Assembly: GCA_011389815.1 (NCBI GenBank)
Contig: JAABTP010000032.1
Coordinates: 1 to 32,352 of the forward strand
Direction: 5' to 3'
DNA: 32,352 nucleotides
Origin: Desulfobulbaceae bacterium
GTDB lineage: Bacteria; Desulfobacterota; Desulfobulbia; Desulfobulbales; Desulfobulbaceae
Part shown: positions 586 through 27,936 of the stretch, piece by piece
Position numbering within the stretch: position 1 is the first letter of the stretch
Layout of the letters: each line of letters starts with the position of its first letter
Position numbers and translations under genes: made by a program
Notes under the pieces: generated by a model
The model's input: the letters and a program-made list of their open reading frames with translations, nothing else
What the model was told of the DNA's origin: nothing
The model's database searches: none

Positions 586-1260
586 ATGTCTAAATTGAAG
601 AGGCGGGATAGTTGCGCCCAAAATTTCTCATTGCGCTATTCTCATATTGAAAAAAGTTTAGGCTCTGAATTGCTGGAGAATAAGATCAAAGCCTGCCAAT
701 CCTTTATTCGTTTTGCCCGGAGCACAGGGCTGCCAGTAGATGATTTTCTTCATGAAATTGAAACACTCGCTCAAAAAGGAACAGAAAAGAATCTCAGTTC
801 CAAGCATGACAGCCTGCTCATCACCTCTATTCATCGCGCCAAAGGGCTGGAGTGGCCCCTGGTGATTCTCCCAGGCCTGGAAGAAGGAATTATACCGTTT
901 CGTCAGGACAAAGGAGAACTGGAAGCTGAGGATATTGAAGACGAGCGACGTCTTTTTTATGTTGGTATGACCCGTGCACGGGAGGAGCTTTGCCTGACAT
1001 ACCCTCATGACCCGCGCCTGGAACGACGAAAAAAAGCAGGTGACAGCCGCAGTCCTGTGGATACGGAAAAGGGAAAGTACCTGGCAAGCTGTTTCCTTTA
1101 CGAGACAAATCTGAATTTTTCTGATTGCCTGGGAGAACGCATTATACTTTCTGAACAGAACAAGGACGCTGTAAAGGCTGTTGACCTCACCATAGGTAAA
1201 CGGTATCTTAAGGCTGTACAGGCATCGGTTCCCTTGAAACGAAGAAAAAACAAAAAGTAA
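586..1260 (+). pseudogene. UvrD/PcrA-type helicase, C-terminal remnant
   Basis: This 224-residue frame holds only the last part of a superfamily 1A DNA helicase. LLITSIHRAKGLEWPLVILP (about residues 80-99) is the region leading into motif V. DERRLFYVGMTRAREELCL (about 118-136) is motif VI with its arginine finger. The Walker A and B motifs and the whole N-terminal half are missing; UvrD-like helicases usually run about 650-750 residues. An in-frame stop at 568-570 precedes the ATG, and a transposase remnant lies immediately upstream, so truncation by an insertion is the likely history. Without its ATP-binding half the product cannot be a working helicase. The frame itself is undamaged, so the loss may be recent, or the fragment may still be expressed as part of the operon that follows 15 bases later. 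Confidence 0.85.
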
Positions 1261-1275: not shown

Positions 1276-1566
1276 ATGAAGATGTCTTCTGAAGATATGC
1301 AAAAGAAAATTATCCTGGAGCCCAACTATCTTCTCGAACGGATAGCGAATGAAATTACCGTTTACCATCCAACCCTTACGACTTCGCTCTATCTGAATGA
1401 AACCGGTGCCCTTATCTGGGAACTCTGCAATGGACAAAGAAGCACAGCAGATATCATTGATATTCTGACAGCATCCTATCAGGAGAACAGCCAGCAAATA
1501 GCAGGCGATGTCGCCAATGTCATCACCCTACTGCTCAAGAATAATATTGCCACCTTGCAGGAATAA
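1276..1566 (+). CDS. PqqD-like peptide-binding protein
   Basis: A 96-residue protein with the PqqD/RRE-like fold signature. It has a beta-rich start (ILEPNYLLERIANEITVYHP), then LNETGALIWELCNGQRSTAD, the family's hallmark in which a conserved small-residue/W-x-L segment begins a helix. A second helical part reads VANVITLLLKNNIATLQE. PqqD-type domains bind leader peptides and hand them to modifying enzymes such as radical SAM proteins. I chose ATG 1276, which follows ACAGG at a usable distance; a GTG at 1267 would add three residues. It is 8 bases ahead of an HprK-like gene, a pairing known from exosortase-associated and lasso-peptide-type gene sets. No precursor peptide or radical SAM gene is seen nearby, so the substrate is unknown. 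Confidence 0.75.
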   Translation: MKMSSEDMQKKIILEPNYLLERIANEITVYHPTLTTSLYLNETGALIWELCNGQRSTADIIDILTASYQENSQQIAGDVANVITLLLKNNIATLQE

Positions 1567-1574
1567 ATTTTAAT

Positions 1575-2453
1575 ATGCCTTCTGTATATTCTGTTGGTTT
1601 TGCTGGGCTATCTGTTGAAATCCATTATACCGACAACAACACCCTTCAATTCTTGGACTTTCTCTTTAGCGACCTGCGTGCATCATCAAATTCTGATTTC
1701 TCTGGAGAAGCAATATTGACTATCTCACAGAACAAAGAAGGAGAGCACTACATCCTCACAAACAGAGAAGGAACTTTTTTTAGCGGCCCGCTCAACGTCC
1801 AGTTTGCTGCAAGCCTGTTTGACCAGGTCATCTTTCACCTGATTAATCATCGTACAGACGGGGTTGCCCTTCACAGCGCAGCAGTTGCCTATAAAGGAGG
1901 CACCATCCTGCTGCCTGGTCAAAGCGGTTCTGGGAAAAGCACGGTCACAGCCTGGCTGACCTCTGATCATTGTCAATGCCGTTGTTCGTACCTGACCGAT
2001 GAGCTGATCCTGTTAGCGGCAGACGATTCCAGCACGGTGACTCCTTTTCCAAGACCTTGTTGCATCAAACCCGGTTCTCTTGCTGCCATTCAGGAGATCC
2101 TGCCCGCGAACCGGAATATTTTTCTCGACCAACAAGGAGCTATGTTGCCTCACAGGCTACTTAACCCGGATTTTTCTCCACTTGCTCCACCCCTTGCTCT
2201 GCTGCTTTTTCCACACTACCAAGCCGATGCCCCCCTTCAGGTCGAAAAGATTTCACCGGCCCGGACATCAGCTCTGCTCATGACCTGTGATGTCAATGCC
2301 CGTAACTTACCGGATCATGGTTTTCACCAGCTTGTTGAGCTTGCCCGCTCAATACCGGCCTATACAATAACATACAGCAACTTGACTGATTGCAACGAAC
2401 TCCTGCCTGATCTTTTTGCCCATGTAGGTCTGGAAGCATTATCAGAAAAATGA
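1575..2453 (+). CDS. HprK-related P-loop kinase-like protein
   Basis: This 292-residue protein has a clear Walker A motif, GQSGSGKST, at about residues 115-123, preceded by VALHSAAVAYKGGTILLP. That arrangement is the HPr kinase-like C-terminal domain. SYLTDELILL about 20 residues later corresponds to the HprK Walker-B-like acidic segment, and FPRPCCIKPGS further on matches the usual conserved P-x-P...K-P-G run. True HPr kinase has an N-terminal DRTGG domain, which is absent; the first ~95 residues are a different region. Such stand-alone HprK-like proteins occur beside PqqD-like and nucleotidyltransferase-like genes, and relatives phosphorylate peptides in some lasso-peptide clusters. The gene overlaps the next one by four bases (ATGA), so translation is coupled. 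Activity on a peptide is inference; the family assignment is firm. Confidence 0.8.
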   Translation: MPSVYSVGFAGLSVEIHYTDNNTLQFLDFLFSDLRASSNSDFSGEAILTISQNKEGEHYILTNREGTFFSGPLNVQFAASLFDQVIFHLINHRTDGVALHSAAVAYKGGTILLPGQSGSGKSTVTAWLTSDHCQCRCSYLTDELILLAADDSSTVTPFPRPCCIKPGSLAAIQEILPANRNIFLDQQGAMLPHRLLNPDFSPLAPPLALLLFPHYQADAPLQVEKISPARTSALLMTCDVNARNLPDHGFHQLVELARSIPAYTITYSNLTDCNELLPDLFAHVGLEALSEK

Positions 2454-3661
2454 TTAGAAGAATTCTCTCACTATGTGCTCGTGATACCGGCCATGAGATG
2501 ATGTATTCTCAGCTGCAACAGGCCCTGCTTTGTTTTCAGGAAAATGCAGAAGCTGATTTATGGAACCAACTCCTGCATATGGCGGAACAGCAAGGTCTTT
2601 CTCCTTTGCTCTATCATCACAGTCAACAGATAAGCTGCCAACTCCCTGCACATTTTAAAAGATTATTACGAAGCCTGTATTTACGGAACAGACAGGCAAA
2701 TACTCTCCGCCTCAATGCTGTTGCTGAAATTCTTACCTGGTTTGCTGCGGCTAATATCCAGGTGATGACAGTCAAGGGGATTGCGCTCTGTCATTTTCTC
2801 TATACAGAGCCTGGCTTACGCCCTATGCGGGATATTGATTTATTGGTGAGCGAAAAGGATCTTGCTGTAGCTCAGGAGATCCTGCTTACTCATGGTTACC
2901 TCCCAGCTGAGAAGTATGACATCCCGAAAGACTATTACCACCTCCCACCCCTGGTAAAAACCATTGCAGGCCTGCCTGTAACCATTGAACTGCACCGCTG
3001 TCTTTTTCCCGCTCATCCCTGTTATCCAGCCTGGTCTTTGGAAACACTCTTGCCAAACAAACATACCTTCAGTATCAACAATATCACAGCCCACACCCTT
3101 TCCCTTGAAGAGACCCTCTGGTATGTCTACCTGCACGGCTTTCAGGCACCCCTGACCTATGAACCCTTTCGATTGATTCACGTTGCTGACTTGGTCACTC
3201 TTATTGAAAAATACTCTGAGCAACTTGATCAAAATATGCTTAAAAAAAATTGGCCAACAATGACCAATGTCCTTTCACGGTTCCATGGCCTGACACCCTT
3301 GCAAGAACAGGTGATCAATCGCTTCAACCTCCCCATTAAAGAACATGCCCATGAGGCAGGTCAGCCCTACCAAGGATGGCCTCAACGTCGTTTTCGAAAA
3401 ACTAACCTGCTTACACTGCCACAACTTCTTAAGGATACTTTTCTCCCATCCCGTTGGTGGGTGCAACTCTACTATGGTCACCTCTGCGGATACGGCTATT
3501 GGCGCGCTCTTTTTTTTGAGCATCCTCGTGCTGTCTGGCGCTGGTTTAAGGACTATTTCTTCGTATATAGAGCCTGCCTTCCAAACGCAACAGAAAGAAA
3601 AAAAAAGAAAAAAAACAATACGCTCAACTTCACTCTTCTTTCTCTTTGTTTTTCTCCCTGA
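2450..3661 (+). CDS. Nucleotidyltransferase family protein (NTP_transf_5-like)
   Basis: This 403-residue protein carries the pattern of the uncharacterised nucleotidyltransferase family NTP_transf_5. A helical N-terminus (LHMAEQQGLSPLLYHHSQ) is followed by VKGIALCHFLYTEPGLRPMR and DIDLLV (about residues 122-132), where D-x-D would be the metal-binding pair. Next comes EILLTHGYLP, then a long helical C-terminal region. It begins inside the stop of the HprK-like gene, so the PqqD/HprK/nucleotidyltransferase trio is one transcription unit. The last ~20 residues (after RACLPNATE) are translated from an A-rich tract at 3592-3616 and look unlike protein; the natural end may be earlier, or a slip in the A-run may have changed the tail. 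Function is unknown; NMP transfer to a peptide or small molecule would be the family-based guess. Confidence 0.7.
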   Translation: MIRRILSLCARDTGHEMMYSQLQQALLCFQENAEADLWNQLLHMAEQQGLSPLLYHHSQQISCQLPAHFKRLLRSLYLRNRQANTLRLNAVAEILTWFAAANIQVMTVKGIALCHFLYTEPGLRPMRDIDLLVSEKDLAVAQEILLTHGYLPAEKYDIPKDYYHLPPLVKTIAGLPVTIELHRCLFPAHPCYPAWSLETLLPNKHTFSINNITAHTLSLEETLWYVYLHGFQAPLTYEPFRLIHVADLVTLIEKYSEQLDQNMLKKNWPTMTNVLSRFHGLTPLQEQVINRFNLPIKEHAHEAGQPYQGWPQRRFRKTNLLTLPQLLKDTFLPSRWWVQLYYGHLCGYGYWRALFFEHPRAVWRWFKDYFFVYRACLPNATERKKKKKNNTLNFTLLSLCFSP

Positions 3662-12145: not shown

Positions 12146-12871
12146 TCACCGTTCAGGTCTGACAAGGGAAATCCATAGATGTGTCATACATAATTCGTTA
12201 TCCGTTCGTTTTACAATTGATGCATATTCAGCAACTCGGCCATTGTTTTTCTTCGGCCTGAGTTGCTCCTGATCTGACCATTTTGGTTCTTCAGACGACT
12301 GTCCACACAGCTCGCGAATCCAGGTATTGATTTTCTCATGCCACGTTTCTGGCGTCCCATCCTGAAGATAGCCGATCAATCCGGCATAGTTGAGTTTTCT
12401 GCCGTGTTTGCCCAGCTTGAAACGCTCTATGCCGCCGCAGGGCACATGTTTTTCTTTCTCTTTATGTCCTATCACATATTCCTGGTGGCGTTTTTTCGGC
12501 AATTTCGTTGAAAGACGTTTTCCCTCGAAAACGGTAATCCGTGGCGAATCAATTCCGGTATCAGGATTCACCTTGAGATAAATGCCGATATCAGTCGCCG
12601 GACTATTACCACGTCTTTCGTCTTCCATGCTTTCTCGGTTTGCAAAGAAGTTCTCTTGGTCGGCAGCATTGGTGATAAAGCGGGTAAGTTTGCTGTTCAG
12701 ACCATCTTCATTCTCAATGGCATCGTTCATGGCAGATTCGGCAAATTTCGGCAGGATTGTTTTGATAACTTCAACCACCTTTTTGAATTGCGTATTTTGA
12801 GGTGGGCCAAGTAAGGTTCCGATACCGCCGAGCATTCGTCCGGGAGGGGATTGATTTATGGTATTCAGCAT
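12146..12871 (-). CDS. Putative PD-(D/E)xK-type nuclease partner of the methyltransferase
   Basis: A 241-residue protein with no family I can name. Its centre has the order of a PD-(D/E)xK nuclease core: a Glu in helix 1 (E80 or E82), D94 in SPATDIGIYL, then E116-G-K118 in RITVFEGKRL. The spacing of 21 residues between D and E is normal for that fold. A conserved-looking block, GGIERFKLGKHGRKLNYAG (146-164), follows and may bind DNA. The start ATGCTGA overlaps the methyltransferase stop by seven bases, so the two are co-translated. The pairing suggests the restriction half of a restriction-modification or defence unit. Nuclease activity is inference from three residues and context, and other helper roles are possible. 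Confidence 0.55.
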   Translation of the reverse strand: MLNTINQSPPGRMLGGIGTLLGPPQNTQFKKVVEVIKTILPKFAESAMNDAIENEDGLNSKLTRFITNAADQENFFANRESMEDERRGNSPATDIGIYLKVNPDTGIDSPRITVFEGKRLSTKLPKKRHQEYVIGHKEKEKHVPCGGIERFKLGKHGRKLNYAGLIGYLQDGTPETWHEKINTWIRELCGQSSEEPKWSDQEQLRPKKNNGRVAEYASIVKRTDNELCMTHLWISLVRPER

Positions 12872-15831
12872 CCCTGCTCCAAAAGATCAATTAATGTTTC
12901 ATCAGCATCACGAAGGGCAATGGAACGGAGCCAGTATCGTTTCTGATTCGGTTTAATCATGAAAATGATGTTTTGTTCGTAGAGGCGGAGAATGCGGTTG
13001 ATGAACAGACGACTGCTGTGGCGGCGATGCAACAGTTCATCAAGAAACGGAACAAGCTGTTCTTTATCCGGCAGCTCTATCTGTGGTTCGTCGCCGTAAC
13101 AAAAGGGGTAGCAGATAAAAGAACCAAGCGGAATAGGTTGTAACGGGCGAAATTCTTTATAGACTGGGTTGAGGATATCGCAATACATTGTGCCGAAATT
13201 CTGCAAGTCGGATTCATCTGCTTTAGAGAGAACAGCAGCGTTCTCACCCTTACGCCGGAACTCAACGAGATACTTGGAAATATCCTTCATAAGTGCTTGT
13301 TCCCAGAAAGCTATATCAATGTCGTGCGTGTCGTCGGGGTAGGGCAGTGCCATTATGTCGCTGAGATATAATGAGTTTGCCCTTCCAACTAATATCCTTC
13401 CGCTAATCAACGTGGCTAAGCCCCCGAAGAGTTTTGAATCGTTTAAACGTTCAGCGAGGATCTTTAATTGATTACGTTCACTATCCGGGGCATGTACTCC
13501 AATTATTTGATTAGTAAATACAGAATATTGATCCGTGTACATTGCGGGAATAGCTGCTCCATCAACAATTTCTCTGATCAATACATGAGGAGCGGAAAAA
13601 ATTTGTTGAATAGTTTTTCGTGGTTCTTCATAAAAAAGTTTATCAATAGGCTTTACGATATCCCAATTAAGCCCCTCTGATGTCAATGCATGAGGTGGAA
13701 CGTTTTGTTTTCCTGTTATCCAAGGTGCAAGTTTTGGAGTTCGTTTCAGACCACACTTCTCCATACGTTTTTTGGGGGACAATTCAATAAATTCGTTCGC
13801 ATTGGGCAGATCATTTAAGCGACTCCCGCATCCGACACTATACCCTTCGCCAAACTGCCACCCATGATTCTCCCTCTTTTCCTCCAGATACTCTCCCAAC
13901 GTCGGAGCGTCGGTCAACAGCTGATCCAGCATGCGATGCAGCCTGCCGCCGCCGAGCAAGTTGGTTTTCCAGACATACGGATTCTGCTGAACCGATTCTC
14001 GCGAAACCCAATGGAAGTCATAAGGGTCTAGTTCAAATAGAAGTTTTTCCTTGAGAGGCTTGGTTCTGCGGAAAGTGAGATGTAATATTTTTTCTGTAGC
14101 TGGAAGGGCATTTAGACTGATCACAGCTGCTGCTGCAACTTTTGCCTTAAACAGTATCCCTTCAAGCGGTGTAAAATCGAGAATTTGATTAACGGCGAAT
14201 TGTTCAAAGAGGTAACTGCGGAAAGGCCGGGCGTTGCCATTATAGAGCAGGGGGCCTGCCGGTTGAATCAGGCAAACTGTTCCTCCTTTACTGGCAACTT
14301 TAAAAGACTGCTCCAGAAAAAGGAGGGCAAGTTGGGTGTCCGGGAGTTTGGGACGTTCCTTGACCTGCGTTTTTTCTATCTGTTTTGCGGTATCAGTGGT
14401 TAACCTGCTGTCAAAAGGCGGATTACCGATAACCAGGTCAAAATGATTATTGAGTTCTTCGGACTGAACGACCTCAAAAAAATCCCTGTCCAGCAGATTA
14501 CGATCCTGTAATTTATCGAATTTAAGTTTTTTCCAGATAACCAACGGTTCTAGTTCGTCACAGAGCGCAACACAGAGACTGAAGGCGGTGACCAAAACCG
14601 CTTCGGAGGCTTTGTCGATCCCGAAGATATTATTTTTTAAAATTTTCTGTAATTCTTTGTACGAAGGTTTTTTCCAGTCATTGGCTATACGCCAGCATTG
14701 AATAAGTCGTTTAAATGCGCCGACCAAGAAAACACCTGAGCCGCAGGCAGGGTCAAGGATCTTCCAGGAAAGTGTTTCTGCATCAAGGGGCAGGCATTGG
14801 TCCAGCAGGAAATCAACCAGCATGGGCGGTGTATAGACAACACCTTTGTCTTTTGCAGCCAAAAACTCCTCGTAAATATTGCTGATCAACTCAACCGGCA
14901 GATCCTCAAAGGAGTAAAGCGGCCAAAAGAGCAGTTGTCCCGAGCCTGGATCCTGATCGCCTCGTAGGAAGGCTGCAAGTTCTGCAAGGTCGGCCTGTTC
15001 AAGTTCTTCCTTTTCCTCATTCGGTAAATCAAAGATACCGCCATTGAAATGCTTGCTCAAATGATCGAATAATTTTATACAGCTTCCTTCCTCTGAAAAG
15101 AGGGAGGCAACATCATCATTGTCCGCATGTGAAAATTGACGTAAGAATCCTTTCGCGAAAACGCGATTTCCGGCAGAATCCTGACGGTCATTCAGATACT
15201 TGATCAGAATACCCATCACCAGAAGACGGTTTACAGTGCGTTCCGAAAGGATTTTTCGTTTCAGCAGTTTGTTTCTGAATACTTTGAGGTGAGAGAGGAG
15301 CTTGAAATACGCGGTTTTTTCAAGGACGAAATCGTTTGTAAAAGCCGGATTTTCCCAAAGGGTTCCGGTGGCAATTTCACGCGCAGCAAAAGCCTGGTCG
15401 GTAGCAAGCAGCTTTTCGAGCTTATTGAACGGAGTGAATAGAGGTTTTTGGGAATTTTTATCTATCTTAGGTTCTTGGCGGCAATTGAGAATTTTTATCT
15501 GACCGGCTGTCAGGATAAAGACCAACGGAGGGATACCGGCATTCCAAAGTCGGCGATGCAGCCCGGCGTACTTGGATTCGTCAAAAGAAAGCGAACTGTC
15601 GTAATAGATATAAATTTGAGGAAGAGGGGATCGAGCGGTATCGTTCGGAAAAATACGGAAGTATACAGCATCTGCCTGATACTTCTCTGCCTGTTCAAGC
15701 GCGATGCGTATCCTTGGTTCTGCCTGCTCCTTCTCCTGGACAAAGTAAAGGCTCGAAAGTTCTCCGTCAGGACGGAGCATTTCCATGCGGCTCAATTCTT
15801 TTTTAAAAATTTCTTTGTTTGAACCGTTCAT
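12865..15831 (-). CDS. N6-adenine DNA methyltransferase (type IIG/Eco57I-like)
   Basis: This 988-residue protein contains a gamma-class N6-adenine methyltransferase domain. Motif I, the SAM site, is ILDPACGSGVFLVGAFKRL at about residues 355-373. Motif IV is VIGNPPFDSRL at about 465-475, where NPPF flips and methylates adenine. Between them, FGIDKASEAV is the SAM-ribose acidic loop. The helical lead-in KGVVYTPPMLVDFLLDQ is typical of Eco57I-like and BREX PglX-like enzymes. The first ~200 residues (with ADAVYFRIF, IYIYYD and PPLVFILTAGQIKILN) look like a decayed or remodelled nuclease-type domain without a clear ExK. Residues after ~620 should contain the target-recognition domain. It overlaps the small D-ExK protein downstream. 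It is most likely the modification half of a two-gene restriction or defence system. Confidence 0.85.
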   Translation of the reverse strand: MNGSNKEIFKKELSRMEMLRPDGELSSLYFVQEKEQAEPRIRIALEQAEKYQADAVYFRIFPNDTARSPLPQIYIYYDSSLSFDESKYAGLHRRLWNAGIPPLVFILTAGQIKILNCRQEPKIDKNSQKPLFTPFNKLEKLLATDQAFAAREIATGTLWENPAFTNDFVLEKTAYFKLLSHLKVFRNKLLKRKILSERTVNRLLVMGILIKYLNDRQDSAGNRVFAKGFLRQFSHADNDDVASLFSEEGSCIKLFDHLSKHFNGGIFDLPNEEKEELEQADLAELAAFLRGDQDPGSGQLLFWPLYSFEDLPVELISNIYEEFLAAKDKGVVYTPPMLVDFLLDQCLPLDAETLSWKILDPACGSGVFLVGAFKRLIQCWRIANDWKKPSYKELQKILKNNIFGIDKASEAVLVTAFSLCVALCDELEPLVIWKKLKFDKLQDRNLLDRDFFEVVQSEELNNHFDLVIGNPPFDSRLTTDTAKQIEKTQVKERPKLPDTQLALLFLEQSFKVASKGGTVCLIQPAGPLLYNGNARPFRSYLFEQFAVNQILDFTPLEGILFKAKVAAAAVISLNALPATEKILHLTFRRTKPLKEKLLFELDPYDFHWVSRESVQQNPYVWKTNLLGGGRLHRMLDQLLTDAPTLGEYLEEKRENHGWQFGEGYSVGCGSRLNDLPNANEFIELSPKKRMEKCGLKRTPKLAPWITGKQNVPPHALTSEGLNWDIVKPIDKLFYEEPRKTIQQIFSAPHVLIREIVDGAAIPAMYTDQYSVFTNQIIGVHAPDSERNQLKILAERLNDSKLFGGLATLISGRILVGRANSLYLSDIMALPYPDDTHDIDIAFWEQALMKDISKYLVEFRRKGENAAVLSKADESDLQNFGTMYCDILNPVYKEFRPLQPIPLGSFICYPFCYGDEPQIELPDKEQLVPFLDELLHRRHSSRLFINRILRLYEQNIIFMIKPNQKRYWLRSIALRDADETLIDLLEQGC

Positions 15832-16662: not shown

Positions 16663-17157
16663 TTACCCCTCCTGCTCCACAACTTCCTGTTTCTCCTCCC
16701 CCTCAAAAACCTGCAACAACAAAAAGATGGTCACGCCGACGAAAATCGCTGAATCCGCCACATTAAAGGCGGGCCAATGGTATTTCCCGATATAGAAATC
16801 AAGAAAATCCACCACCGAGCCGTACAGCACCCGATCAATCACATTGCCCACAGCCCCGCCCCCGATAAGGGCGAAGCAGAGGGTGTACCAAGCGTTCTCT
16901 TTTCCCATCTTGCGCTGCATAAGAACAAGTGCCACCAGGGCCACCACCGCAATGCTGATGAAAAAGATCTGCCGCCAGAGCAGCGGCATCCCGGAAAGCA
17001 TCCCAAAGGCGGCCCCGCTGTTGCGAAGAAAGGTCAGGTTGAAAAAGCCTGGAATAACAGCTGTGGAATCATACAGGGCAAAGTTATCCAGAATCGAGAC
17101 CTTGGTCAGCTGGTCGCCAACCACGACCAGCGCCATAATAATAAAAAAACGGATCAT
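16663..17157 (-). CDS. lspA: Lipoprotein signal peptidase (signal peptidase II)
   Basis: This 164-residue inner-membrane aspartyl protease removes signal peptides from prolipoproteins after lipid attachment. It has four hydrophobic segments and all family motifs: GDQLTK near the start, NLTFLRNSGAAFGML, GGGAVGNVIDRV with the first catalytic Asp, VVDFLDFY, and FNVADSAIFVG with the second catalytic Asp. I chose ATG 17157, two bases after the ileS stop (TGATTATG); a longer frame would run back into ileS. The ileS-lspA order is common in bacteria and points to one operon. The charged tail EGEEKQEVVEQE is cytoplasmic and not conserved in the family. Confidence 0.96.
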   Translation of the reverse strand: MIRFFIIMALVVVGDQLTKVSILDNFALYDSTAVIPGFFNLTFLRNSGAAFGMLSGMPLLWRQIFFISIAVVALVALVLMQRKMGKENAWYTLCFALIGGGAVGNVIDRVLYGSVVDFLDFYIGKYHWPAFNVADSAIFVGVTIFLLLQVFEGEEKQEVVEQEG

Positions 17158-17159
17158 AA

Positions 17160-19976
17160 TCAGCCTGCCAGCTCCTTGACCACAGCAAGACAGCGGCTGC
17201 ACAGGGTCGGATGCTCGCTGTCTTCACCTACAGTGGGAGAGATGGTCCAGCAGCGTTCGCATTTATTGCCCGGTGCGGGCCGAACAGCAATCTGCAAGCC
17301 CTTCATTTCTTCGCCAGCAACAAAGCTGGTATCGCCTGCCTCGGTAACGACATGCAAACTGGAGATAATACAGAGTTCCTGCAGCAACGCCAGATTGTCA
17401 TTGAGAAAGGCTGTTGTTTCCGCATCTGCTTGGAGGAGCACCTCCGCATCCAGGGACAGGCCAATGGTCTTATCCCGACGCGCTGCCTCCAGTACCCTGG
17501 TGATCTCGCTGCGCAGATCCAGGAGCTTGCTCCAACGGGCATCCAGCTCCGCATCCTGGACAATATCATCCACCTTGGGGAAGTCAGCAAAAAAGACCGA
17601 TTCCTCAAGAGGTGCCTTCTGGTCCAGGTCATGCAAATGTTCCCAGGCCTCGGCTGCGGTCACGCTGAGGATCGGGGCCATCAGGCGGAGTAGGCCGTCC
17701 AGAATACGGTAAATAACGGTCTGGGCCGCCCGCCGCTCCGGTGCATTCGGGGCGGAACAGTAGAGTCGATCCTTGAGCACGTCCATGTACAGGCTGGAGA
17801 TGGTGGTACCGCAGAAGTTGATCAGGCTGTGGTAGATGGCATGGAACTCATATTCGTCGTAGGCCCGCTCCACTCGCCTGACCAGATCGGCGAATCGGGC
17901 CAGAGCCCATTGGTCTATCTCCTTGAAGTCCTCAGGTCCGACGCTGTCTGTGGCCGGATCAAAATCATTGAGATTAGAGAGGAGAAAACGCAGGGTATTG
18001 CGCAGTTTGCGATAGGCATCCGAGACCCGGCGCAGGATTTCCTCAGAGACCTTGACATCATCCCGGTAATCTTCACTGGCTACCCAGAGACGGAGGATTT
18101 CAGCCCCGAATTTATCAATCATCTCCTGTGGCGCAATCACGTTACCGATGGATTTTGACATCTTTTTGCCCTTGCCGTCTACCACATAACCGTGTGTAAG
18201 TACGCCCTTAAACGGTGCCTGGTCACGGGTGCCCACAGAGGTCAGCAGGGAGGACTGGAACCAGCCCCGGTGCTGGTCGCTGCCTTCCAGATAGAGATCT
18301 GCCGGAGAGCGCAGTTCGTCCCGGGCCTCCATAACCGCCGCATGGCTGACCCCGGAATCAAACCAGACATCCAGGATATCGGTCTCTTTCTCAAAATGGG
18401 TTGAGCCGCAGGAGCATTGTACCTCGTCCGGGAGAAAGTCCGCTGCCTCATGCTTGAACCAGGTATCAGCTCCTTCTTGTTCAAACATGGCCTCAATATT
18501 TTCACAGACCGCAGCATCCTTGAGAATCTCGCCGCAATCCGCGCAGGTCAGCACGGTAAGCGGGACACCCCAGGAACGCTGGCGCGAGACACACCAGTCC
18601 GGTCGGCCTTCCACCATGCCGTAGATGCGCTGCTGGCCCCAGGCCGGGGTCCATTTGACCTCCTTGATGGCCTGCAGGGCCTTGTCGCGCAGGTCATTAT
18701 TCTTCATGGAGATGAACCACTGCTTGGTGGCTCGGTAGATCACCGGTTTTTTACAACGCCAGCAATGGGGATAGGAATGGTTGATCTCGCTCTCCTTGAC
18801 CAGGGAGCCGTCTGCGGCCATATCATCATTGATCTCCCGGTTGACCGCCGGGACCTGACGACCTGCATATTTTCCGGCTTCTTCTGTGTATTCTCCTGCG
18901 TCATTCAGGGGCGAAAGCACCTCCAGATCGTAGCGCAGACCAGTGATATAGTCGTCTGCACCATGTCCAGGCGCAGTGTGGACACAACCGGTACCAGCCT
19001 CAGTGGTGACATAGTCGGCCAGCACCATCAGGGAATCACGATTCAGGAAAGGGTGGCGACATTTCTTGCCTTCCAGCCCCTTGGCAGAAAAAGTAGCCAG
19101 GATCTTGTAGTCGCTGATTCCGAAGTCCTCAAAGCATTTTTCTACCAGTTCCTGGGCCAGGATCCAGACTTCATCCTTGACCGCAACAGCGGCATAGACA
19201 AAATCAGGGTGGAAAGCTACACCGGTATTTGCGGGCAGGGTCCAGGGAGTGGTGGTCCAGATCAGTACCTTGAGGTTTTCCAGGCCTGCAAGTTCAGGCA
19301 CTACCTCTTTCAGCTCCTCTGGATCCTCAGCCACGGAAAATTTGACATAAATAGATGGTGAGGTATGATCGTAATATTCAACCTCAGCCTCGGCCAGGGC
19401 CGTGCGGCAGGTGGAGCACCAGTAGACCGGCTTTTTGGAGCGCACCACCCCGTCGGAGAGCAGGAAGCGATTGAACTCCCGAGCAATGGCGGCCTCGTAG
19501 TCGTAATTTATGGTGAGATAGGGATTATCCCAATCGCCCAAGACCCCTAAACGGCGAAACTGCTCTTTCTGGGTCTTGATCCATTTTTCAGCATATTTGC
19601 GGCAGGCCCCGCGCTTTGCCAACACTGGGATGGTTTCTTTTTTCTTGCCCAGCTCCTTGTCTACATTATGCTCAATGGGCAGACCGTGGCAGTCCCAGCC
19701 CGGAATATACGGGGCCTGGAAACCGGCCAGTCGGCGGGACTTGAGGATAATATCCTTGAGTACCTTATTAAAGGCGGTCCCGAGATGAATATTGCCGTTG
19801 GCATAGGGAGGGCCGTCGTGGAGGATGAACAGGGGCCTGTCCGCTGCTTTTTCCTGAAGCTTCTGATAGAGTTTTTCCTTGTCCCAATGTTTCAGGTATT
19901 GCGGCTCTTTCTGGGTCAGATTGGCCTTCATCTTGAATTTGGTTTTGGGCAGGTTCAGGGTATCCCGGTATTCCAT
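17160..19976 (-). CDS. ileS: Isoleucyl-tRNA synthetase
   Basis: This 938-residue class I aminoacyl-tRNA synthetase charges tRNA-Ile in the cytoplasm. PPYANGNIHLGTAFNKVLKD (about residues 56-75) contains the HIGH-type signature, here HLGT. KMSKSIGNVIAP (about 604-615) is the KMSKS loop. WTTTPWTLPANTG and the downstream GTGCVHTAPGHG region belong to the CP1 editing domain that removes mischarged valine. The C-terminus carries a zinc-binding pattern (CERCW...CSRC), as in the bacterial, E. coli-like form. The length matches the usual ~930-940. It is followed by lspA with two bases between stop and start. No T-box leader is apparent upstream. Confidence 0.98.
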   Translation of the reverse strand: MEYRDTLNLPKTKFKMKANLTQKEPQYLKHWDKEKLYQKLQEKAADRPLFILHDGPPYANGNIHLGTAFNKVLKDIILKSRRLAGFQAPYIPGWDCHGLPIEHNVDKELGKKKETIPVLAKRGACRKYAEKWIKTQKEQFRRLGVLGDWDNPYLTINYDYEAAIAREFNRFLLSDGVVRSKKPVYWCSTCRTALAEAEVEYYDHTSPSIYVKFSVAEDPEELKEVVPELAGLENLKVLIWTTTPWTLPANTGVAFHPDFVYAAVAVKDEVWILAQELVEKCFEDFGISDYKILATFSAKGLEGKKCRHPFLNRDSLMVLADYVTTEAGTGCVHTAPGHGADDYITGLRYDLEVLSPLNDAGEYTEEAGKYAGRQVPAVNREINDDMAADGSLVKESEINHSYPHCWRCKKPVIYRATKQWFISMKNNDLRDKALQAIKEVKWTPAWGQQRIYGMVEGRPDWCVSRQRSWGVPLTVLTCADCGEILKDAAVCENIEAMFEQEGADTWFKHEAADFLPDEVQCSCGSTHFEKETDILDVWFDSGVSHAAVMEARDELRSPADLYLEGSDQHRGWFQSSLLTSVGTRDQAPFKGVLTHGYVVDGKGKKMSKSIGNVIAPQEMIDKFGAEILRLWVASEDYRDDVKVSEEILRRVSDAYRKLRNTLRFLLSNLNDFDPATDSVGPEDFKEIDQWALARFADLVRRVERAYDEYEFHAIYHSLINFCGTTISSLYMDVLKDRLYCSAPNAPERRAAQTVIYRILDGLLRLMAPILSVTAAEAWEHLHDLDQKAPLEESVFFADFPKVDDIVQDAELDARWSKLLDLRSEITRVLEAARRDKTIGLSLDAEVLLQADAETTAFLNDNLALLQELCIISSLHVVTEAGDTSFVAGEEMKGLQIAVRPAPGNKCERCWTISPTVGEDSEHPTLCSRCLAVVKELAG

Positions 19977-20332: not shown

Positions 20333-20380
20333 ATGAGAACGGTGAAAATAATGATGGAGCAACTGTGTGCAAGTAATTAG
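20333..20380 (+). CDS. Possible 15-residue leader ORF overlapping the next start
   Basis: The ATG at 20333 has a strong AGGAG ribosome-binding site, and the frame ends with TAG at 20378-20380, giving 15 residues (M-R-T-V-K-I-M-M-E-Q-L-C-A-S-N). Its end overlaps the GTG start of the large membrane protein at 20367 by 14 bases in another frame. Such an arrangement can couple translation of the second gene to the first. It may equally be chance; no homolog is known to me. Confidence 0.3.
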   Translation: MRTVKIMMEQLCASN

Positions 20381-22727
20381 TAATTTTATTAATCAATGGC
20401 TTGGTACAGCCCTGCCGCAACTTTTTCTCCTTTTTCTCGGCATTCTGCTGGTTATTCTGGTGGTCACCGCCCTTTGGGATCGGCGGATCAATCGCCTGGG
20501 TGGGATTTTCGGTCTTTTGATCGGCCTGTTTATGGCTTCCATTGCCTTGGAGGAAAGCATTGCCGCTTTTATCGGTGGTCTTGATTCAGGGGTGCGTGTC
20601 CGGCTGATCGCTGTTTTGTTCAGTCTGTGTCTCCTCATCCTGACCGGTACAGCCTGGATAAAAACCGGGTTGCAGAAGCGTTATGGACTGACATGGACAG
20701 CAGTGGCACTTATTGTTCTGTTCACGGCCTTATTCCCAGACCTGCTCCGCTCCTTTCCCAGTCTGCTTGGTGTGCATTATGGTATTGCTCTTGCCGGACT
20801 GTTTATCGGCTTTCTTCTCTTGCTGGTCTTTCATTTTTCCATCACCATCTCGGAGTTATACGCAAATCAGCAGACCCTGCTTGAACGCATTAAACAGCTT
20901 GAGCGGCGTGAGGATACAGCTCTGGAGCAGCCGGTAGGCCCGAAAGACCCGGTAAAAGTGGAGCAAAAAGGTCTACATGGTTTGTTAAGCCTGCTTGGGA
21001 AAAAGCTGAAAAAGCTGTCTGTCAGCCTGATTCGTCGCCCGGAACGGGGAACCAGTCTGGGTGCGCCACTGATTATTCTGGTCGCAGTATGCTCTGTCTT
21101 TCTGGTTGGGATATCCACTCCCCAGGTTATGGTCGGCGACGAAGTGACCCATTATTATATGCTCAAGACGCAGGCCGATGTTCTGCCGCAACCGAATTTT
21201 ATCGCCGAAATTCCTACAGGCTGGGGGGAAACAGAGGTGCGGCGTTACCCCCATTCCTTTGGCTGGCATTATCTGGGGGCTGTGATCTACAAGCTCACTG
21301 GCGGCTCGTTTGCCGCTATCCAGCTTTATCAGGCCCTTTTTCTGGCCCAGTTCCTCGGTGTTGCCTATTTATTGGCCCGGAGCCGACGGGGCGTGCAAAC
21401 CCGATCTGCTTTGCCGTATCTCCTCATCTTAACAACAGTACCAATGACCTTGATCTTTTCCGTGACTTTTTATCAGGATATACCAATGACGGCCCAGGTG
21501 CTGACCGCCTTTTACCTGCTTCGGCAGAATCGTTGGCTGTTGGCGACTTTTTTTCTCGGTTTTGCTCTGGCGATGAAGGTCACGGCTGTTCTCTTTTTTC
21601 CGGCCTTTTTTATCTGCTTGCTCATATGGACTGCGGGACGTTGTCATTTGAGAAAAACCGTATTGATTTGTTGCTGCTCGCTGCTGGTTATTTCTTCGTG
21701 TACCTGGGGACTGGGCAGGGCTATTAACGTCTATGCCGGGGCATCGTTCTATCCGCTTGAAAAACTCTATCAAATAGTGCATATCGTTCAGGAGAAGATC
21801 AATCCAGTGCCGCAGAAGAAGAGGAGGGGGAAACAGCTTTCCGCTGTCAAGCAACAGGACCGGCAGCCAAACCAGGACCACGAACCAGTTGGAAACACAA
21901 CAGAAGATCAGGCAAAGGTTATTTCGGAACAACAGGCTTCTATTATTGCGAATCACCCTGGTGATCTGCGTATAAAGGCGAATTATTTTGTCTACGGCGG
22001 GCTGTTGCTCTGGCTTTTGATTATAGTCGGGGGTGCTGGTGCTCTTCTGTCTTTATTGCACCGGAGAGGTAAGGGGAGTCAACAACCTGTTCAGGAAAAG
22101 GCATATTGGTTATGGGGTACAGGGCTGTCTTATACCTTGCTGGTTGCGCTACTTCTTAAGAGCACACCTGATGCCCGTTTTTTTCTGCCCGGACTTCCTT
22201 TTCTCCTCCTGCCAATTGCGGAACAGACTGTGTGTCTGCCGCGTCCCAAATGGGTGATCTCATTACTTGCCAGTTTGGCACTCCTTCAGGGCGGGTATGT
22301 TCTGTCTAAAACCTATAAATTACGGCAGGTCAGCCCGGAGCTGAAAGAGGGGATATCCTGGCTCCAAAAGCATCCTCCGTACCCTGCCAAGGTTTTCATG
22401 TATCCAGAAGGGAATTATCGACTTTTTCCTGTCCCCCATGAATGGTATATGAATTACCATCTTCGGGAATTCTGGCGGGCAGATAATGATCTGCGGAGAG
22501 CTATTCTGCGTAATTTCAATATAGGTGCAGTGGTAATCAAAAAACATCTTATTGCCCCTGTTGATCAGGAGATTACCAACCTTGGCGTGTATCCGGATTA
22601 TTTTGTCCAGGAAATAGAGCAGGATGATCGCTTTCATACAGTCTTTGAGAACAAGGCTCTTCGTATTATTCGTGTTGTGCAGGTTCCCGGTGTCAATGAG
22701 CCTTCACAGAAACCTCTGAATTATTGA
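20367..22727 (+). CDS. DUF2304 domain fused to membrane glycosyltransferase (GT39-like)
   Basis: A 786-residue inner-membrane protein with two joined parts. Residues ~1-180 repeat a small integral-membrane layout and end in FHFSITISELYANQQTLLER, which matches the end of DUF2304 proteins; these are usually separate and sit next to polyprenyl-phosphate sugar transferases. A basic hydrophilic linker follows (185-225). From ~230 on there is a PMT/ArnT-type glycosyltransferase. MVGDEVTHYYML (about 254-265) holds the acidic pair in the first periplasmic loop that binds the lipid-linked donor, and about ten further membrane segments follow. A polar, Lys/Gln-rich loop lies at ~485-535. The start GTG 20367 has GGAG seven bases upstream. 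It probably transfers a sugar from a polyprenyl phosphate; donor and acceptor are unknown. Confidence 0.72.
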   Translation: MQVISNFINQWLGTALPQLFLLFLGILLVILVVTALWDRRINRLGGIFGLLIGLFMASIALEESIAAFIGGLDSGVRVRLIAVLFSLCLLILTGTAWIKTGLQKRYGLTWTAVALIVLFTALFPDLLRSFPSLLGVHYGIALAGLFIGFLLLLVFHFSITISELYANQQTLLERIKQLERREDTALEQPVGPKDPVKVEQKGLHGLLSLLGKKLKKLSVSLIRRPERGTSLGAPLIILVAVCSVFLVGISTPQVMVGDEVTHYYMLKTQADVLPQPNFIAEIPTGWGETEVRRYPHSFGWHYLGAVIYKLTGGSFAAIQLYQALFLAQFLGVAYLLARSRRGVQTRSALPYLLILTTVPMTLIFSVTFYQDIPMTAQVLTAFYLLRQNRWLLATFFLGFALAMKVTAVLFFPAFFICLLIWTAGRCHLRKTVLICCCSLLVISSCTWGLGRAINVYAGASFYPLEKLYQIVHIVQEKINPVPQKKRRGKQLSAVKQQDRQPNQDHEPVGNTTEDQAKVISEQQASIIANHPGDLRIKANYFVYGGLLLWLLIIVGGAGALLSLLHRRGKGSQQPVQEKAYWLWGTGLSYTLLVALLLKSTPDARFFLPGLPFLLLPIAEQTVCLPRPKWVISLLASLALLQGGYVLSKTYKLRQVSPELKEGISWLQKHPPYPAKVFMYPEGNYRLFPVPHEWYMNYHLREFWRADNDLRRAILRNFNIGAVVIKKHLIAPVDQEITNLGVYPDYFVQEIEQDDRFHTVFENKALRIIRVVQVPGVNEPSQKPLNY

Positions 22728-22742
22728 TTCCTGCGCATCATT

Positions 22743-24173
22743 ATGCCTCATATTATTGATAAAATATATCCGATTTATTTGCTTATTGCCTGTTTTTTTC
22801 TCTTCAAGCTGTCTCACCTCCATATTCCCTATTTCTGGGATGAACTGGGGGTGTACTCTCGGGCCGCACTGTATCTGTTTGATCATGGAATCAGCATGCT
22901 TCCAGATGCCATGCCGCCGGAACTCTCCAGGGGGCATCCGCTTTTATGCGCAGTATTCTTTGCATTCGGCTACAAACTGTTCGGCCCTCAGGTCTGGGCC
23001 GGGCACTTAACAGCCCTGCTGTTGAGTTGTGCTCTGCTTTATCTTCTCTATAAATTTACACGGGACGTTTTTGATCGCAAAACAGCGTTACTTGCCTCAG
23101 CCCTGCTCGCTGTTCAACCTGTTTTTATTGCCCAGTCCAGCATGGTATTACCTGAGGTTATGTTGGCATTTTTTTGCACCGCATCGCTCTATGCCTATTT
23201 CAAGGGGCGCTTTGTCTGGCTCGCCCTTTTTTCCACCCTGGCGATTCTGACCAAAGAAACCGCAATTATCCTTCCTTGTTGTTTTGGGCTGCCTGTTGTG
23301 TTAACCATGCTGCATAATGGAATAAACAAGAAACGTCTTTTAGAGTTTTTTTTGGTCTGCATGCCGCTGTTTGCTTGGGGGATTTTTCTTTTGATGCAGA
23401 AGATCCAGAATGGCTGGTTCTTCTTTCCTCTCCATACAGGGTATATTTCTTTTTCCCGTTCCGATATATTAGCACGGCTTGGGTATTATCTGAGCTTTTT
23501 ATTGAAAGGACAAGGGCGATATGTCTGGACTATACTGATCCTGGCGGTATCTATTCTGTTTTTATTAAAAAAAAGAACGACCTTGTTTTCCAGATCGTTT
23601 ATCAGCGAAGTTTTACCTGGAAGAGAATGGAGACCAGTACATATTTTGATTTTGTATATTGTTGTTTCTCTGTTCGTATCTACATTGAACTTCCATCTGG
23701 CTCGGTACATCCTTCTGATATTGCCTGCACTCTGTATGCTGATTGCTGCCCAATTCGTATATTTTGTTGAGAACCTCAATAGACCTGTTGGAAAGTACCT
23801 GCTTTTTCCCTTTTTTCTTGTTCCCCTGCTTTATTACCGAGGTCATATCTTTAACGTTGATGCTGATATGGGATATCTGGAATTCGTTGAGGCGCAACAG
23901 GAGATCACCGCCCACCTTGATGAAATTGCCGGGGAGGATGCTGTCTTAGCTGCCGAATTTCCAGTTATTCATGGGCTTATTGACCGAAGAGCCGGGTACT
24001 CAATAAGAGAATATAATGTGGCAGGCAGCGGCAAAAAGGCAGTTGAAGCAGATTACCGTATTTTTTCATCACCCGGCAACCTTGACCAATCTGAGCCTGA
24101 TGTAACAAAGTATGTACTGCTGCAAAAAAATATTTCGCCATTGGCTAAGATATTTCTTTATAAGAAAAAGTAA
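22743..24173 (+). CDS. GT39-type integral-membrane glycosyltransferase
   Basis: This 476-residue protein has many hydrophobic segments and the dolichyl-phosphate-mannose mannosyltransferase layout. The first helix is followed by FWDELGVYSRAA (W32-D33-E34), the acidic pair that coordinates the lipid-phosphate donor. SRGHPLLCAVFFAFGYKLFG and SSMVLPEVMLAFFCTASLY follow, then LAILTKETAIILP, the family's conserved K-E segment. It lies 15 bases after the DUF2304 fusion and 35 bases before a GT2 gene, so the three probably form one glycosylation pathway. The donor is likely a polyprenyl-phosphate sugar made by the GT2 enzyme. The acceptor (protein, lipid A or polysaccharide) is not evident. No clear Shine-Dalgarno precedes ATG 22743; translation may be coupled to the gene before. 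Confidence 0.82.
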   Translation: MPHIIDKIYPIYLLIACFFLFKLSHLHIPYFWDELGVYSRAALYLFDHGISMLPDAMPPELSRGHPLLCAVFFAFGYKLFGPQVWAGHLTALLLSCALLYLLYKFTRDVFDRKTALLASALLAVQPVFIAQSSMVLPEVMLAFFCTASLYAYFKGRFVWLALFSTLAILTKETAIILPCCFGLPVVLTMLHNGINKKRLLEFFLVCMPLFAWGIFLLMQKIQNGWFFFPLHTGYISFSRSDILARLGYYLSFLLKGQGRYVWTILILAVSILFLLKKRTTLFSRSFISEVLPGREWRPVHILILYIVVSLFVSTLNFHLARYILLILPALCMLIAAQFVYFVENLNRPVGKYLLFPFFLVPLLYYRGHIFNVDADMGYLEFVEAQQEITAHLDEIAGEDAVLAAEFPVIHGLIDRRAGYSIREYNVAGSGKKAVEADYRIFSSPGNLDQSEPDVTKYVLLQKNISPLAKIFLYKKK

Positions 24174-24208
24174 GCTTGAAACCAGCACCGGCATTGTAAA
24201 GGAGAAAA

Positions 24209-24952
24209 ATGTATAAGGGATGTAAAGTCGTGGTTGTCATGCCAGCGTATAATGCTGAGAAGACGGTTGTAAAAACCTACCGTGAGATCATGGCCCAGGA
24301 AGTTGTGGATACGGTTATTTTGGTTGATGACGCCAGTTCAGACAACACTGCGGAGGTCGCTGCCGAGTTGGAGAAAATGCAGGTGATCATCCACCCGAAA
24401 AACATGGGATATGGTGCCAATCAGAAAACCTGTTATCAGGCTGCTCTTGAGGCCGGAGGCGATATCATCATTATGGTGCATCCAGATTATCAATACACTC
24501 CCAAACTCATTCCGGGAATGGCATCATTGATCGGCAACGGGCTGTACTCCTGTGTGCTCGGCTCACGTATACTCGGTGGATACGCCCTGCAAGACGGTAT
24601 GCCGATGTGGAAATATATTGCCAATCGTTTCCTTACGTGTTTTGAAAATTTGTTGATCCAGGCAAAGCTGTCGGAATACCATACCGGTTATCGGGCCTTT
24701 TCCAGAGATCTCCTTGAATCTATAGATCTTTCCGATAATTCTGACGATTTTGTTTTTGACAACCAGATGCTTGCCCAGATAATCTGGGCCGGGTATCCGG
24801 TTGCTGAGATTACCTGTCCTACCAAATATTTTCCAGAGGCTTCGTCCATAAATTTTAGCAGATCAGTGCGATACGGATTCGGATGTGTAAGTACGGCAAT
24901 TCAGTTTCGACTTGCTAAAATGGGTGTGCGGCGTTCTGTATTATTCAGCTGA
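24209..24952 (+). CDS. GT2 glycosyltransferase, polyprenyl-phosphate sugar synthase type
   Basis: This 247-residue soluble GT-A fold enzyme is of the DPM1/Ppm1 type. VVVVMPAYNAEKTV opens the nucleotide-binding fold, and VILVDDASSDNT contains the conserved D-D-x-S-x-D. DIIIMVHPDYQYTP carries the metal-binding D-x-Q segment in the place of D-x-D, and SEYHTGYRAFSRDLL is the acceptor-binding helix start. There is no C-terminal membrane pair, so it is the short soluble form. AGGAG lies 4 bases upstream of the ATG. It would transfer a sugar from UDP or GDP to undecaprenyl phosphate on the cytoplasmic face. The two multi-membrane glycosyltransferases before it could then use that lipid sugar after flipping. 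Confidence 0.88.
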   Translation: MYKGCKVVVVMPAYNAEKTVVKTYREIMAQEVVDTVILVDDASSDNTAEVAAELEKMQVIIHPKNMGYGANQKTCYQAALEAGGDIIIMVHPDYQYTPKLIPGMASLIGNGLYSCVLGSRILGGYALQDGMPMWKYIANRFLTCFENLLIQAKLSEYHTGYRAFSRDLLESIDLSDNSDDFVFDNQMLAQIIWAGYPVAEITCPTKYFPEASSINFSRSVRYGFGCVSTAIQFRLAKMGVRRSVLFS

Positions 24953-25011
24953 GAATATCTGCGTTCATATGCGGATGTAGAATTTATCAAGAAAGCCGCA
25001 AAGAATTCTGT

Positions 25012-25027
25012 TGCATTTTATAATGCA
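25012..25027. promoter_or_regulatory. Palindrome overlapping a -10 element before the GbsR-like gene
   Basis: TGCATT-TTAT-AATGCA is a 6-bp inverted repeat with a 4-base centre. A perfect TATAAT (25019-25024) lies inside it, 45 bases before the ATG at 25070. No good -35 is seen at 17 bases. The layout would suit an autoregulatory operator of the dimeric regulator that follows. AAATTTGT/AAAATTTGTT just after it is a short direct repeat. Confidence 0.45.
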
Positions 25028-25069
25028 GTGGCGTATTTTCAGAAATTTGTAAAATTTGTTAACAAGTAA

Positions 25070-25582
25070 ATGGACAGACACGACACGCTGACAGAAGTAC
25101 GGATGAGGCTGGTGGAAACCGGCGGACGAACATCTCTGGATCTTGGCGCAGGACGGATCGTCGGGCAGATTATGGTATATCTTTATCTGCAAAAAGATGA
25201 GCAGTCATTGGACACAATCGGCGAATCCCTTGCCTTGAGTAAAGCCTCGGTCAGTATCGCGGTTCGTCAGCTTGAGCAGATTGGCTTGGTGCGTAGGGTA
25301 TGGGTTAAGGGTGATCGTAAAAAGTATTATCGCAGTGCTGATAATATCGGGAGTGGCTTGCAGCAAGGTCTGCTTTCGTTTCTGCGTCAAAAGGTTGTGT
25401 TTTTTGGGGTAGAGCTTGAAGGGGCGTTGAGTATGCTTGAAAGCGCACCTGCTGATATAAAAAACAGCGAAGAGTATCTCTTTCTACAGCAAAGGGTGAA
25501 CAGGGCAAGCAAATTACAGACAATTCTGTTGAAGGTGCTTGGTAATCCTCTGGTGAATTTTCTGGCGAAAAATATAACATAA
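25070..25582 (+). CDS. GbsR/MarR-type transcriptional regulator
   Basis: This 170-residue protein has a winged helix-turn-helix. SLDTIGESLALSKASVSIAV (about residues 46-65) is the helix-turn-helix, where SKASVS is the recognition helix start typical of GbsR-like proteins. RQLEQIGLVRRVWVKGDRKK gives the following helix and the wing. GAGRIVGQIMVYLYL before it is the conserved GbsR lead-in helix, and the helical C-terminal part should dimerise. GbsR relatives control osmoprotectant, choline or envelope genes. Which genes it controls here is unknown: candidates are itself (see the palindrome at 25012-25027), the AlbA_2 regulator 47 bases downstream or the polysaccharide genes. It has no clear Shine-Dalgarno. 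Confidence 0.85.
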   Translation: MDRHDTLTEVRMRLVETGGRTSLDLGAGRIVGQIMVYLYLQKDEQSLDTIGESLALSKASVSIAVRQLEQIGLVRRVWVKGDRKKYYRSADNIGSGLQQGLLSFLRQKVVFFGVELEGALSMLESAPADIKNSEEYLFLQQRVNRASKLQTILLKVLGNPLVNFLAKNIT

Positions 25583-25629
25583 TGTTGTGAAAGACTTTTA
25601 TGGATACAGTTTGATATTTCTTTCTTAAA

Positions 25630-26778: not shown

Positions 26779-26917
26779 GTGCCCATAGTTATTCCAGTTT
26801 GCTATTGCAATATCAGGCGATTTGTTTTTTAATCGTACTGCTTCAATTATAGTCAACTTTTTTGGTCCAATACCTAAGTCTGAAAGTTGAGTAAAAAAAC
26901 AAAAAAGGATTTTTTTT

Positions 26918-27880: not shown

Positions 27881-27936
27881 TAAAATATACGCCAACAGCC
27901 TTCATTGCACAAACAACGGTACAAGCGAAAAAAGCA

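Follow-up and report, generated by a model that had tools for sequence, protein, structure and literature searches.

What does a leader-binding protein act upon when its gene is followed by those of a kinase and a nucleotidyltransferase? The question is raised by a contig of 32,352 nucleotides from a Desulfobulbaceae bacterium (JAABTP010000032.1), analyzed over its full length and referred to below as the window. Near its first base, three consecutive genes encode a PqqD-type recognition element for ribosomally synthesized and post-translationally modified peptides (RiPP recognition element, RRE), an HprK-like kinase and a nucleotidyltransferase. We found that this trio is accompanied, across genomes, by a class of proteins sharing a conserved N-terminal leader with a twin-arginine motif. 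Our favoured reading, which we consider probable, is a machine in which the RRE guides the marking of a dedicated class of exported proteins of the twin-arginine translocation (Tat) type; it would phosphorylate them on a Ser or Thr at position +3, that is, the third residue after the leader.

Gene identities and active sites of the trio

The three open reading frames (ORFs) and their junctions, a gap of 8 bases between pqqD and the kinase gene and an overlap of 4 bases between the kinase and nucleotidyltransferase genes, were recovered at exactly the positions given in the first-pass annotation of the window (Table 1); a GTG at 1267 offers an alternative start for pqqD. PqqD and the nucleotidyltransferase pass the Pfam gathering cut-offs of their families. 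No Pfam family reaches its cut-off with the kinase, which also scores below the curated cut-off of the NCBIfam model HprK_rel_A (TIGR04352). A profile built from 50 relatives of PqqD had its nearest solved structures among the leader-binding RREs of lasso, pyrroloquinoline quinone (PQQ) and linear polyphosphorylated peptide (LPP) systems, with TbiB1 (5v1u, E 1.7e-8) ranking above LppB (9x8z, E 1.3e-6) and PbaB1 (9x90, E 8.9e-6). The AlphaFold2 model of the kinase (pLDDT 93.8) adopts the PEPCK/HprK fold from end to end, matching PEPCK 6v2m (VIA Z 16.4, rmsd 4.3, 267 residues aligned) and HPr kinase 1kkl_B (Foldseek E 2.2e-4); when PDB sequences were searched with the kinase profile, the matches were weak only, with HPr kinases appearing from E 0.0037 upward, mixed with other P-loop proteins. 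The protein thus shares its fold and its P-loop/His/Asp active site with HPr kinase/phosphorylase, but scores above the cut-off of no HprK family model and differs in partner genes and substrate class.

The nucleotidyltransferase model (pLDDT 91.9) was superimposed on MenT1 8an4 (Z 12.4, rmsd 3.2, 175 aligned), ANT(2'') (Z 11.4, rmsd 4.0, 166 aligned), and LnuA (Z 10.3, rmsd 3.4, 150 aligned), with a weaker match to the sugar-phosphate transferase FKRP (Z 7.7, rmsd 4.1, 157 aligned); a PDB sequence search with its profile returned nothing at E ≤ 1. With MenT1 and MenT3/TglT among the top structural matches, some of them entries whose titles mention co-expression with the kinase TakA, one might think of a toxin-antitoxin pair, with a MenT-like toxin in the nucleotidyltransferase and the matching antitoxin in the kinase. 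We give this explanation almost no credence, since it requires neither a PqqD protein nor the leader class, and since the drug-modifying enzymes ANT(2'') and LnuA match nearly as well as MenT1.

The active sites of both enzymes are intact. Across 47 aligned kinases from five phyla, His100, Gly120, Lys121, Asp142, Glu143, Arg160 and Arg243 never vary, and the same holds for Lys109, Arg124, Pro125, Asp128, Asp130, Glu180 and His182 across 42 aligned nucleotidyltransferases. Motif counts, which include loci fetched twice, gave GK[S/T] in 67 of 67 HprK matches, [TSC]DE in 66 and the strict Walker A pattern in 51, the remainder deviating mostly at the first Gly; RPxxDxD was present in 55 of 55 nucleotidyltransferase matches. 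Loss of the Walker A or D-x-D residues in relatives, which the first-pass annotation had named as an outcome that would speak against its proposal, was thus not observed. In one genome of the same genus (G058, locus L043) pqqD and hprK cross different frames, perhaps owing to draft errors, and an in-frame TGA in the kinases of G060 and G058 was flagged in one search and unflagged in another.

A leader class that accompanies the trio

Among the genes around the trio in relatives of the same family, one kind of protein kept reappearing, marked by an RR motif near the N-terminus and by the sequence LPAHA. Its leader follows the consensus RRxx(L/I)(K/R)K...LPxxWxxP(V/I)(V/I)ExxxLPAHA↓xTS (arrow, predicted cleavage), and the RR, W, P and LPAHA are kept in every row of a 17-row alignment. 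The genome under study encodes three such proteins away from the trio, one on contig C12 (258 residues; L065, 4029–4805) and two on contig C116. The first-pass annotation had proposed a system that phosphorylates or nucleotidylates a peptide or protein, the substrate being either a product of genes elsewhere or a host protein. The leader proteins, found elsewhere in this genome and beside the trio in relatives, support the former option; an ordinary host protein is not supported. Nor is the lack of a precursor, which had been taken as a trait of the cassette, supported as a property of the system.

A leader model truncated at the AHA column, and blind to the residues downstream, detected 92 distinct leaders; five matches short of the cleavage column were dropped, copies identical up to AHA were counted once, and the 57 source labels behind these leaders do not equate to 57 genomes. 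W-15, P-12, P-4, H-2 and A-1 were present in 92 of 92, and the twin-arginine motif RRxx[LIMVF] in 91. Position +3 was Ser (77) or Thr (15) in all 92, compared with 21% Ser plus Thr across the mature parts. The same residues occupied +3 in 29 of 29 leaders from loci that had been fetched by the kinase only, and in 16 of 16 after removal of those identical to seeds. The parts following the leader are very variable, from 6–7 up to 422 residues after AHA, some with Thr-rich tails, and no Pfam or NCBIfam family scored above its cut-off in six leader proteins. Of these six, the one at L065 alone came near the Tat signal model TIGR01409 (15.6 bits, cut-off 16.7), and at L052 a TatA-type gene lies among leader genes. 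No description of the leader was found in the open-access literature searched, which leaves preprints and most subscription journals outside.

A leader that unites an RR motif with a WxxP of the RRE-binding type could also serve a Tat chaperone, in which PqqD and the kinase would form an ATP-dependent proofreading gate and leave no lasting mark. Dedicated Tat chaperones exist. We nevertheless regard such a gate as improbable, because it explains neither the invariant Ser/Thr at +3, which lies beyond the cleavage site, nor a nucleotidyltransferase with intact catalytic residues. Moreover, the kinase of the LPP system does leave phosphates (PMC13381572).

Leader and trio occur in the same genomes. 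Among 242 genomes of the order, 36 had both a kinase match of at least 200 bits and a leader, one had the kinase only, four had the leader only and 201 had neither (Fisher p 3e-37; counts based on 84 kinase rows, 96 leader rows and the best 53 nucleotidyltransferase rows). By genus, kinase and leader were each found in 17 of 68, and the genera were identical (p 2e-16). A leader was detected in two of the 21 genomes with only weaker HprK-like matches. Outside the family that had provided the model seeds, but within the order, 18 of 19 genomes positive for the kinase at that threshold gave a leader match (that of G222 only partial), and two genomes had a leader match but no kinase. Of the 92 leader matches of at least 45 bits in these genomes, 43 have a kinase or nucleotidyltransferase match (at least 90 bits) no more than 10 kb away on the same contig, a lower bound given that the genomes are drafts.

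The association extends beyond the order. Fifty named kinase loci, whose genomes in some cases also count among the 242, belong to Thermodesulfobacteriota (22), Pseudomonadota (17), Chloroflexota (8), Acidobacteriota (2) and Verrucomicrobiota (1). All three genes are present at 41 of them, PqqD at 47 and the nucleotidyltransferase at 43, so that the first-pass concern that the three genes might not travel together is not borne out. A leader match was found within the fetched DNA at 24 named loci, including 11 of the 28 that belong to phyla other than Thermodesulfobacteriota (namely 7 Chloroflexota, 2 Acidobacteriota, 1 Verrucomicrobiota and, as a partial match, 1 Pseudomonadota). BLAST clustering of all neighbours within 7 kb of the kinase, which makes no use of the leader model, gave the leader protein as the commonest family after the trio itself (18 of 50 loci; next family, 6). 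Furthermore, of the 26 named loci that lacked a leader match, all but L087, L102, L125 and L128 were followed up at genome level; several of these 22 genomes are also among the 242, and 20 of the 22 carry a leader match elsewhere (E ≤ 0.01), one of them with 16. Since the seeds stem from one family only, the scan of named genomes, the BLAST clustering, the 22-genome check and the 18 of 19 genomes outside the seed family constitute the least circular evidence.

Relation to LPP and lasso-peptide systems

A system with a similar set of enzymes, LPP of Bacillota, was described by Popov and colleagues in May 2026. That report (PMC13381572) states that a YxxP motif in the leader, with Y at –16, is recognized by a discrete RRE, that LPP RREs bind [Y/W]xxP leaders, and that the HprK-like LppK adds one to four phosphates at Ser3 of the core, an activity abolished by S3A. 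The leader is removed by a SipW-like peptidase, precursors of 35–200 residues follow the consensus YxxPxVLxHQxIxFETxxS, and the authors consider the role of the NTP transferase obscure and LPP restricted to Bacillota. W-15, P-12 and the hydroxyl residue at +3 had been noted before this comparison, and the agreement is close. Both systems combine a discrete RRE, an HprK-like kinase with intact P-loop and an NTP transferase (a likeness by class only, LppN itself being outside the comparison), together with a leader motif of the form aromatic-xxP (Y-16 to P-13 for LPP, W-15 to P-12 here), Ser at +3 and variable mature parts. Here, however, a Tat-type RR signal stands ahead of this motif, which has W in place of Y; LPAHA takes the place of FET before the cut, mature parts reach 422 residues against 35–200 for LPP precursors, and the substrates are several, dispersed and spread over five phyla other than Bacillota.

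Within the window, Pfam searches covered 25 ORFs (not every small ORF) on a contig that is cut upstream of the trio; they revealed neither an SpI/SipW-like leader peptidase nor an MsbA-like exporter. The sole peptidase is a lipoprotein signal peptidase (16663–17202), 13 kb from the trio, and one S26 peptidase was seen near a distant relative (L057). The LPP precursor consensus was not matched by the 92 leaders, all of which display W-15xxP-12...P-4xH-2A-1 and S/T at +3 instead. As the window fails to provide the peptidase gene, the exporter gene and the precursor consensus, and as LPP is called restricted to Bacillota, we therefore regard the system as a variant that is distinct from LPP but works like it.

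The trio could alternatively consist of left-over tailoring genes of a lasso-peptide cluster that has lost its precursor, cyclase and protease: its three enzyme types are those of pseudomycoidin-type clusters, and a lasso RRE is the closest match to the PqqD profile. Indeed, the paeninodin and pseudomycoidin systems (PadeK/ThcoK, PsmK, PsmN) share with it a PqqD-type B1 protein, an HprK-like kinase acting on a precursor Ser and, in some cases, a nucleotidyltransferase. Lasso kinases are reported to use a His-Lys-Asp-Asp set (PMC9266682), and the lasso nucleotidyltransferase PsmN leads to hexoses on phosphoserine (PMC8498205, PMC9266682). In contrast, the present locus lacks a macrolactam cyclase, a B2 protease and a short precursor of the lasso kind (no macrolactam synthetase or B2 protease domain in the 25 window ORFs), and the predicted acceptor lies near the mature N-terminus, not at a C-terminal Ser. 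That the trio is such a remnant seems to us very improbable, as it recurs in five phyla tied to the leader class. Furthermore, no lasso enzyme family was recognized by eye in the list of neighbour families found at three or more of the 50 loci, and the two lasso-type kinases of the order form a separate branch.

Fusions of PqqD and HprK-like parts also occur in the order, but they form a branch of their own in the kinase tree. Next to four of them (L060, L149, L150 and L158; the L060 fusion is under the TIGR04352 cut-off at 105 bits) a short RR protein is encoded, adjacent or one gene away. Those by L060, L149 and L150 share a different leader, RRxFLxxxxYxxYATPV...MS, and the RR proteins linked to the fusions possibly represent a second leader class; that of L158 reads RREALKK...APVMITLL. 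By eye, HprK-like domains fused to GT2-type glycosyltransferases were noted at L054 and L057–L059, with Thr-repeat leader proteins near the fusion at L057 and L059. In another genome of the same genus (G061), an ORF of 77 residues with the sequence YESPEI, an HprK-like gene, PqqD, an S24-type peptidase (PF00717, 29.3 bits) and a nucleotidyltransferase stand in a row (L157, 4967–8532), possibly an LPP-like cluster outside Bacillota.

Proposed marking of exported proteins and state of the locus

By analogy with LPP and lasso biochemistry, we propose that PqqD binds the WxxP part of the substrate leader and that the HprK-like kinase, recruited to the leader, would phosphorylate, perhaps polyphosphorylate, the Ser or Thr at +3 after LPAHA. 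The nucleotidyltransferase would then attach a group to the phosphate; a sugar or sugar-phosphate is the likeliest, in line with what is reported for PsmN of pseudomycoidin. The marked, possibly folded protein would exit via the Tat pathway and be cut after LPAHA. The nucleotidyltransferase product and the last two steps, Tat export and signal peptidase cleavage, are the least certain parts of this scheme. A Tat signal would suit modification in the cytoplasm preceding export. An order of phosphate first and sugar second, and sugar chemistry as such, fit with natural fusions in which the kinase domain is joined to a GT2 glycosyltransferase (L056 and L109, assigned by Pfam) or, in a Verrucomicrobial locus (L122, 9941–13894), to fucose pyrophosphorylase and GHMP kinase domains. 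One machine would serve several dispersed substrates, here one on C12 and two on C116. An unnamed three-gene cassette would thereby gain a substrate, along with the motif by which it is bound and a single residue predicted to be modified. If this is true, the LPP discovery would extend from short Bacillota peptides to whole proteins with export signals in other phyla, and one export tag would be both passport and modification leader. The host of the trio is likely a cable bacterium. Cable bacteria are not known in pure culture, hence their envelope biology is hard to reach; a set of their exported proteins can now be named as likely bearers of a phosphate-based mark.

More tentatively, and with the odds rather against it, the trio may belong to a general system for decorating surface proteins, in which the phosphate at +3 is the mark to which a glycan becomes attached, assembled there by the nucleotidyltransferase together with partner glycosyltransferases. 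Its logic would resemble that of sortase and exosortase but at the N-terminus, with the export signal doubling as modification leader. Such a system, if true, would bring together the enzymology of RiPPs, export by Tat and glycosylation of the cell surface, and would do so in five phyla or more, including cable bacteria.

Several points weigh against the proposed phosphorylation of Tat-exported proteins. Thr occupies +3 in 15 of 92 leaders, whereas LppK rejected S3T, and LppN was without visible effect in its host, which weakens the nucleotidyltransferase step (both from PMC13381572). The activity of the trio is a prediction, its chemistry being deduced from sequence and analogy, and the assignment of Tat export and cleavage after AHA is motif-based. 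Many of the 92 leaders come from loci fetched with a model that included positions +1 to +4, a bias from which the 29-leader subset is free. Co-occurrence inside the seed family is partly built in, as all seeds are from that family, and the p-values overstate independence because the genomes are related. In Pseudomonadota, the leader stands beside the trio at one of 17 loci, as a partial match (L111, 28 bits), the leader genes there being mostly away from the trio, and two of the 22 genomes with a leader-less trio locus gave no leader match at all. In the kinase tree, a quick one with long branches flagged, the kinases of the trio do not form one clade (four changes needed), and three Chloroflexota kinases with an adjacent leader group among other HprK-like kinases (SH-aLRT 97).

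Further points on this side come from the locus itself. The window begins at the first base of its contig (C161), so the upstream side is cut off. In three genomes of the same genus (L041–L043), a complete UvrD gene of 714–726 residues lies directly upstream of the trio. Here, a C-terminal piece of such a gene precedes pqqD, the N-terminal 435 residues are found at the end of contig C167 (57–1361), and residues of about 436–497 of a relative's UvrD have no counterpart. The weak transposase-like fragment at the contig end is probably an insertion sequence that splits uvrD. Expression of the trio may be impaired, since uvrD, the first gene of the operon, is interrupted. Unlike at L041–L043, no leader gene adjoins the trio, and a pattern search detected no leader remnants within the window. 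The trio may thus be silent here or serve the three dispersed substrates. The split of uvrD between C161 and C167 and the missing downstream leader gene would also agree with a system that works in relatives but has died out in the present genome, the insertion having removed its promoter and the local substrate gene having been lost. We hold this to be unlikely, though worth bearing in mind: the three ORFs are intact, their active sites are conserved, and the genome still has three leader genes.

Table 1. Trio genes, active-site motifs and upstream features, in window positions
Feature	Position	Strand	Evidence
Weak transposase-like fragment at contig end	12..479	+	NF033591 (IS4 family), 15.6 bits, cut-off 152
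C-terminal piece of UvrD-type helicase gene	586..1260	+	PF13361
PqqD-type RRE, 96 residues	1276..1566	+	PF05402, 49.9 bits, gathering cut-off 23.4
HprK-like kinase, 292 residues, PEPCK/HprK fold	1575..2453	+	TIGR04352, 88.7 bits, below curated cut-off of 200
His100 codon of kinase	1872..1874	+	invariant in 47 kinases
Walker A GQSGSGKS, kinase residues 115–122	1917..1940	+	G120 and K121 invariant in 47
Asp142-Glu143, Walker B-like TDE of kinase	1998..2003	+	invariant in 47
NTP_transf_5 nucleotidyltransferase, 403 residues	2450..3661	+	PF14907, 152 bits, gathering cut-off 31.2
RPMRDID, nucleotidyltransferase residues 124–130, DxD catalytic pair	2819..2839	+	R124, P125, D128 and D130 invariant in 42

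The 25 window ORFs contain no radical SAM domain, as the first-pass annotation had stated, and no lasso cyclase or lasso protease. A PqqD gene on contig C134 of the same genome does precede a radical SAM-like gene (by eye), but this is a different locus and was dismissed as a source of a radical SAM partner for the trio. The link to exosortase that had been suggested was not recognized in the neighbourhoods, which were read by eye with no profile search aimed at exosortase; no paper treating exosortase and PqqD together was found in the open-access literature searched. Elsewhere in the genome, a second pair of PqqD and nucleotidyltransferase genes without a kinase is located on contig C177 (L008, 2214–3750), following two genes that look by eye like a histidine kinase and its response regulator, and a lone NTP_transf_5 gene on contig C155 (L009, 7757–8974). 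Farther along the window, an Eco57I-type restriction-modification methylase of 988 residues (12865–15831; PF07669, 74.8 bits) is adjoined by an ORF of 241 residues without a Pfam match. Envelope-polysaccharide genes (two PMT_2, GT2, Wzz and Polysacc_synt_2) occupy 20367–30065, 17 kb from the trio, and a transposase ORF with an integrase core (rve, PF00665) lies at the opposite contig end (31658–32347).

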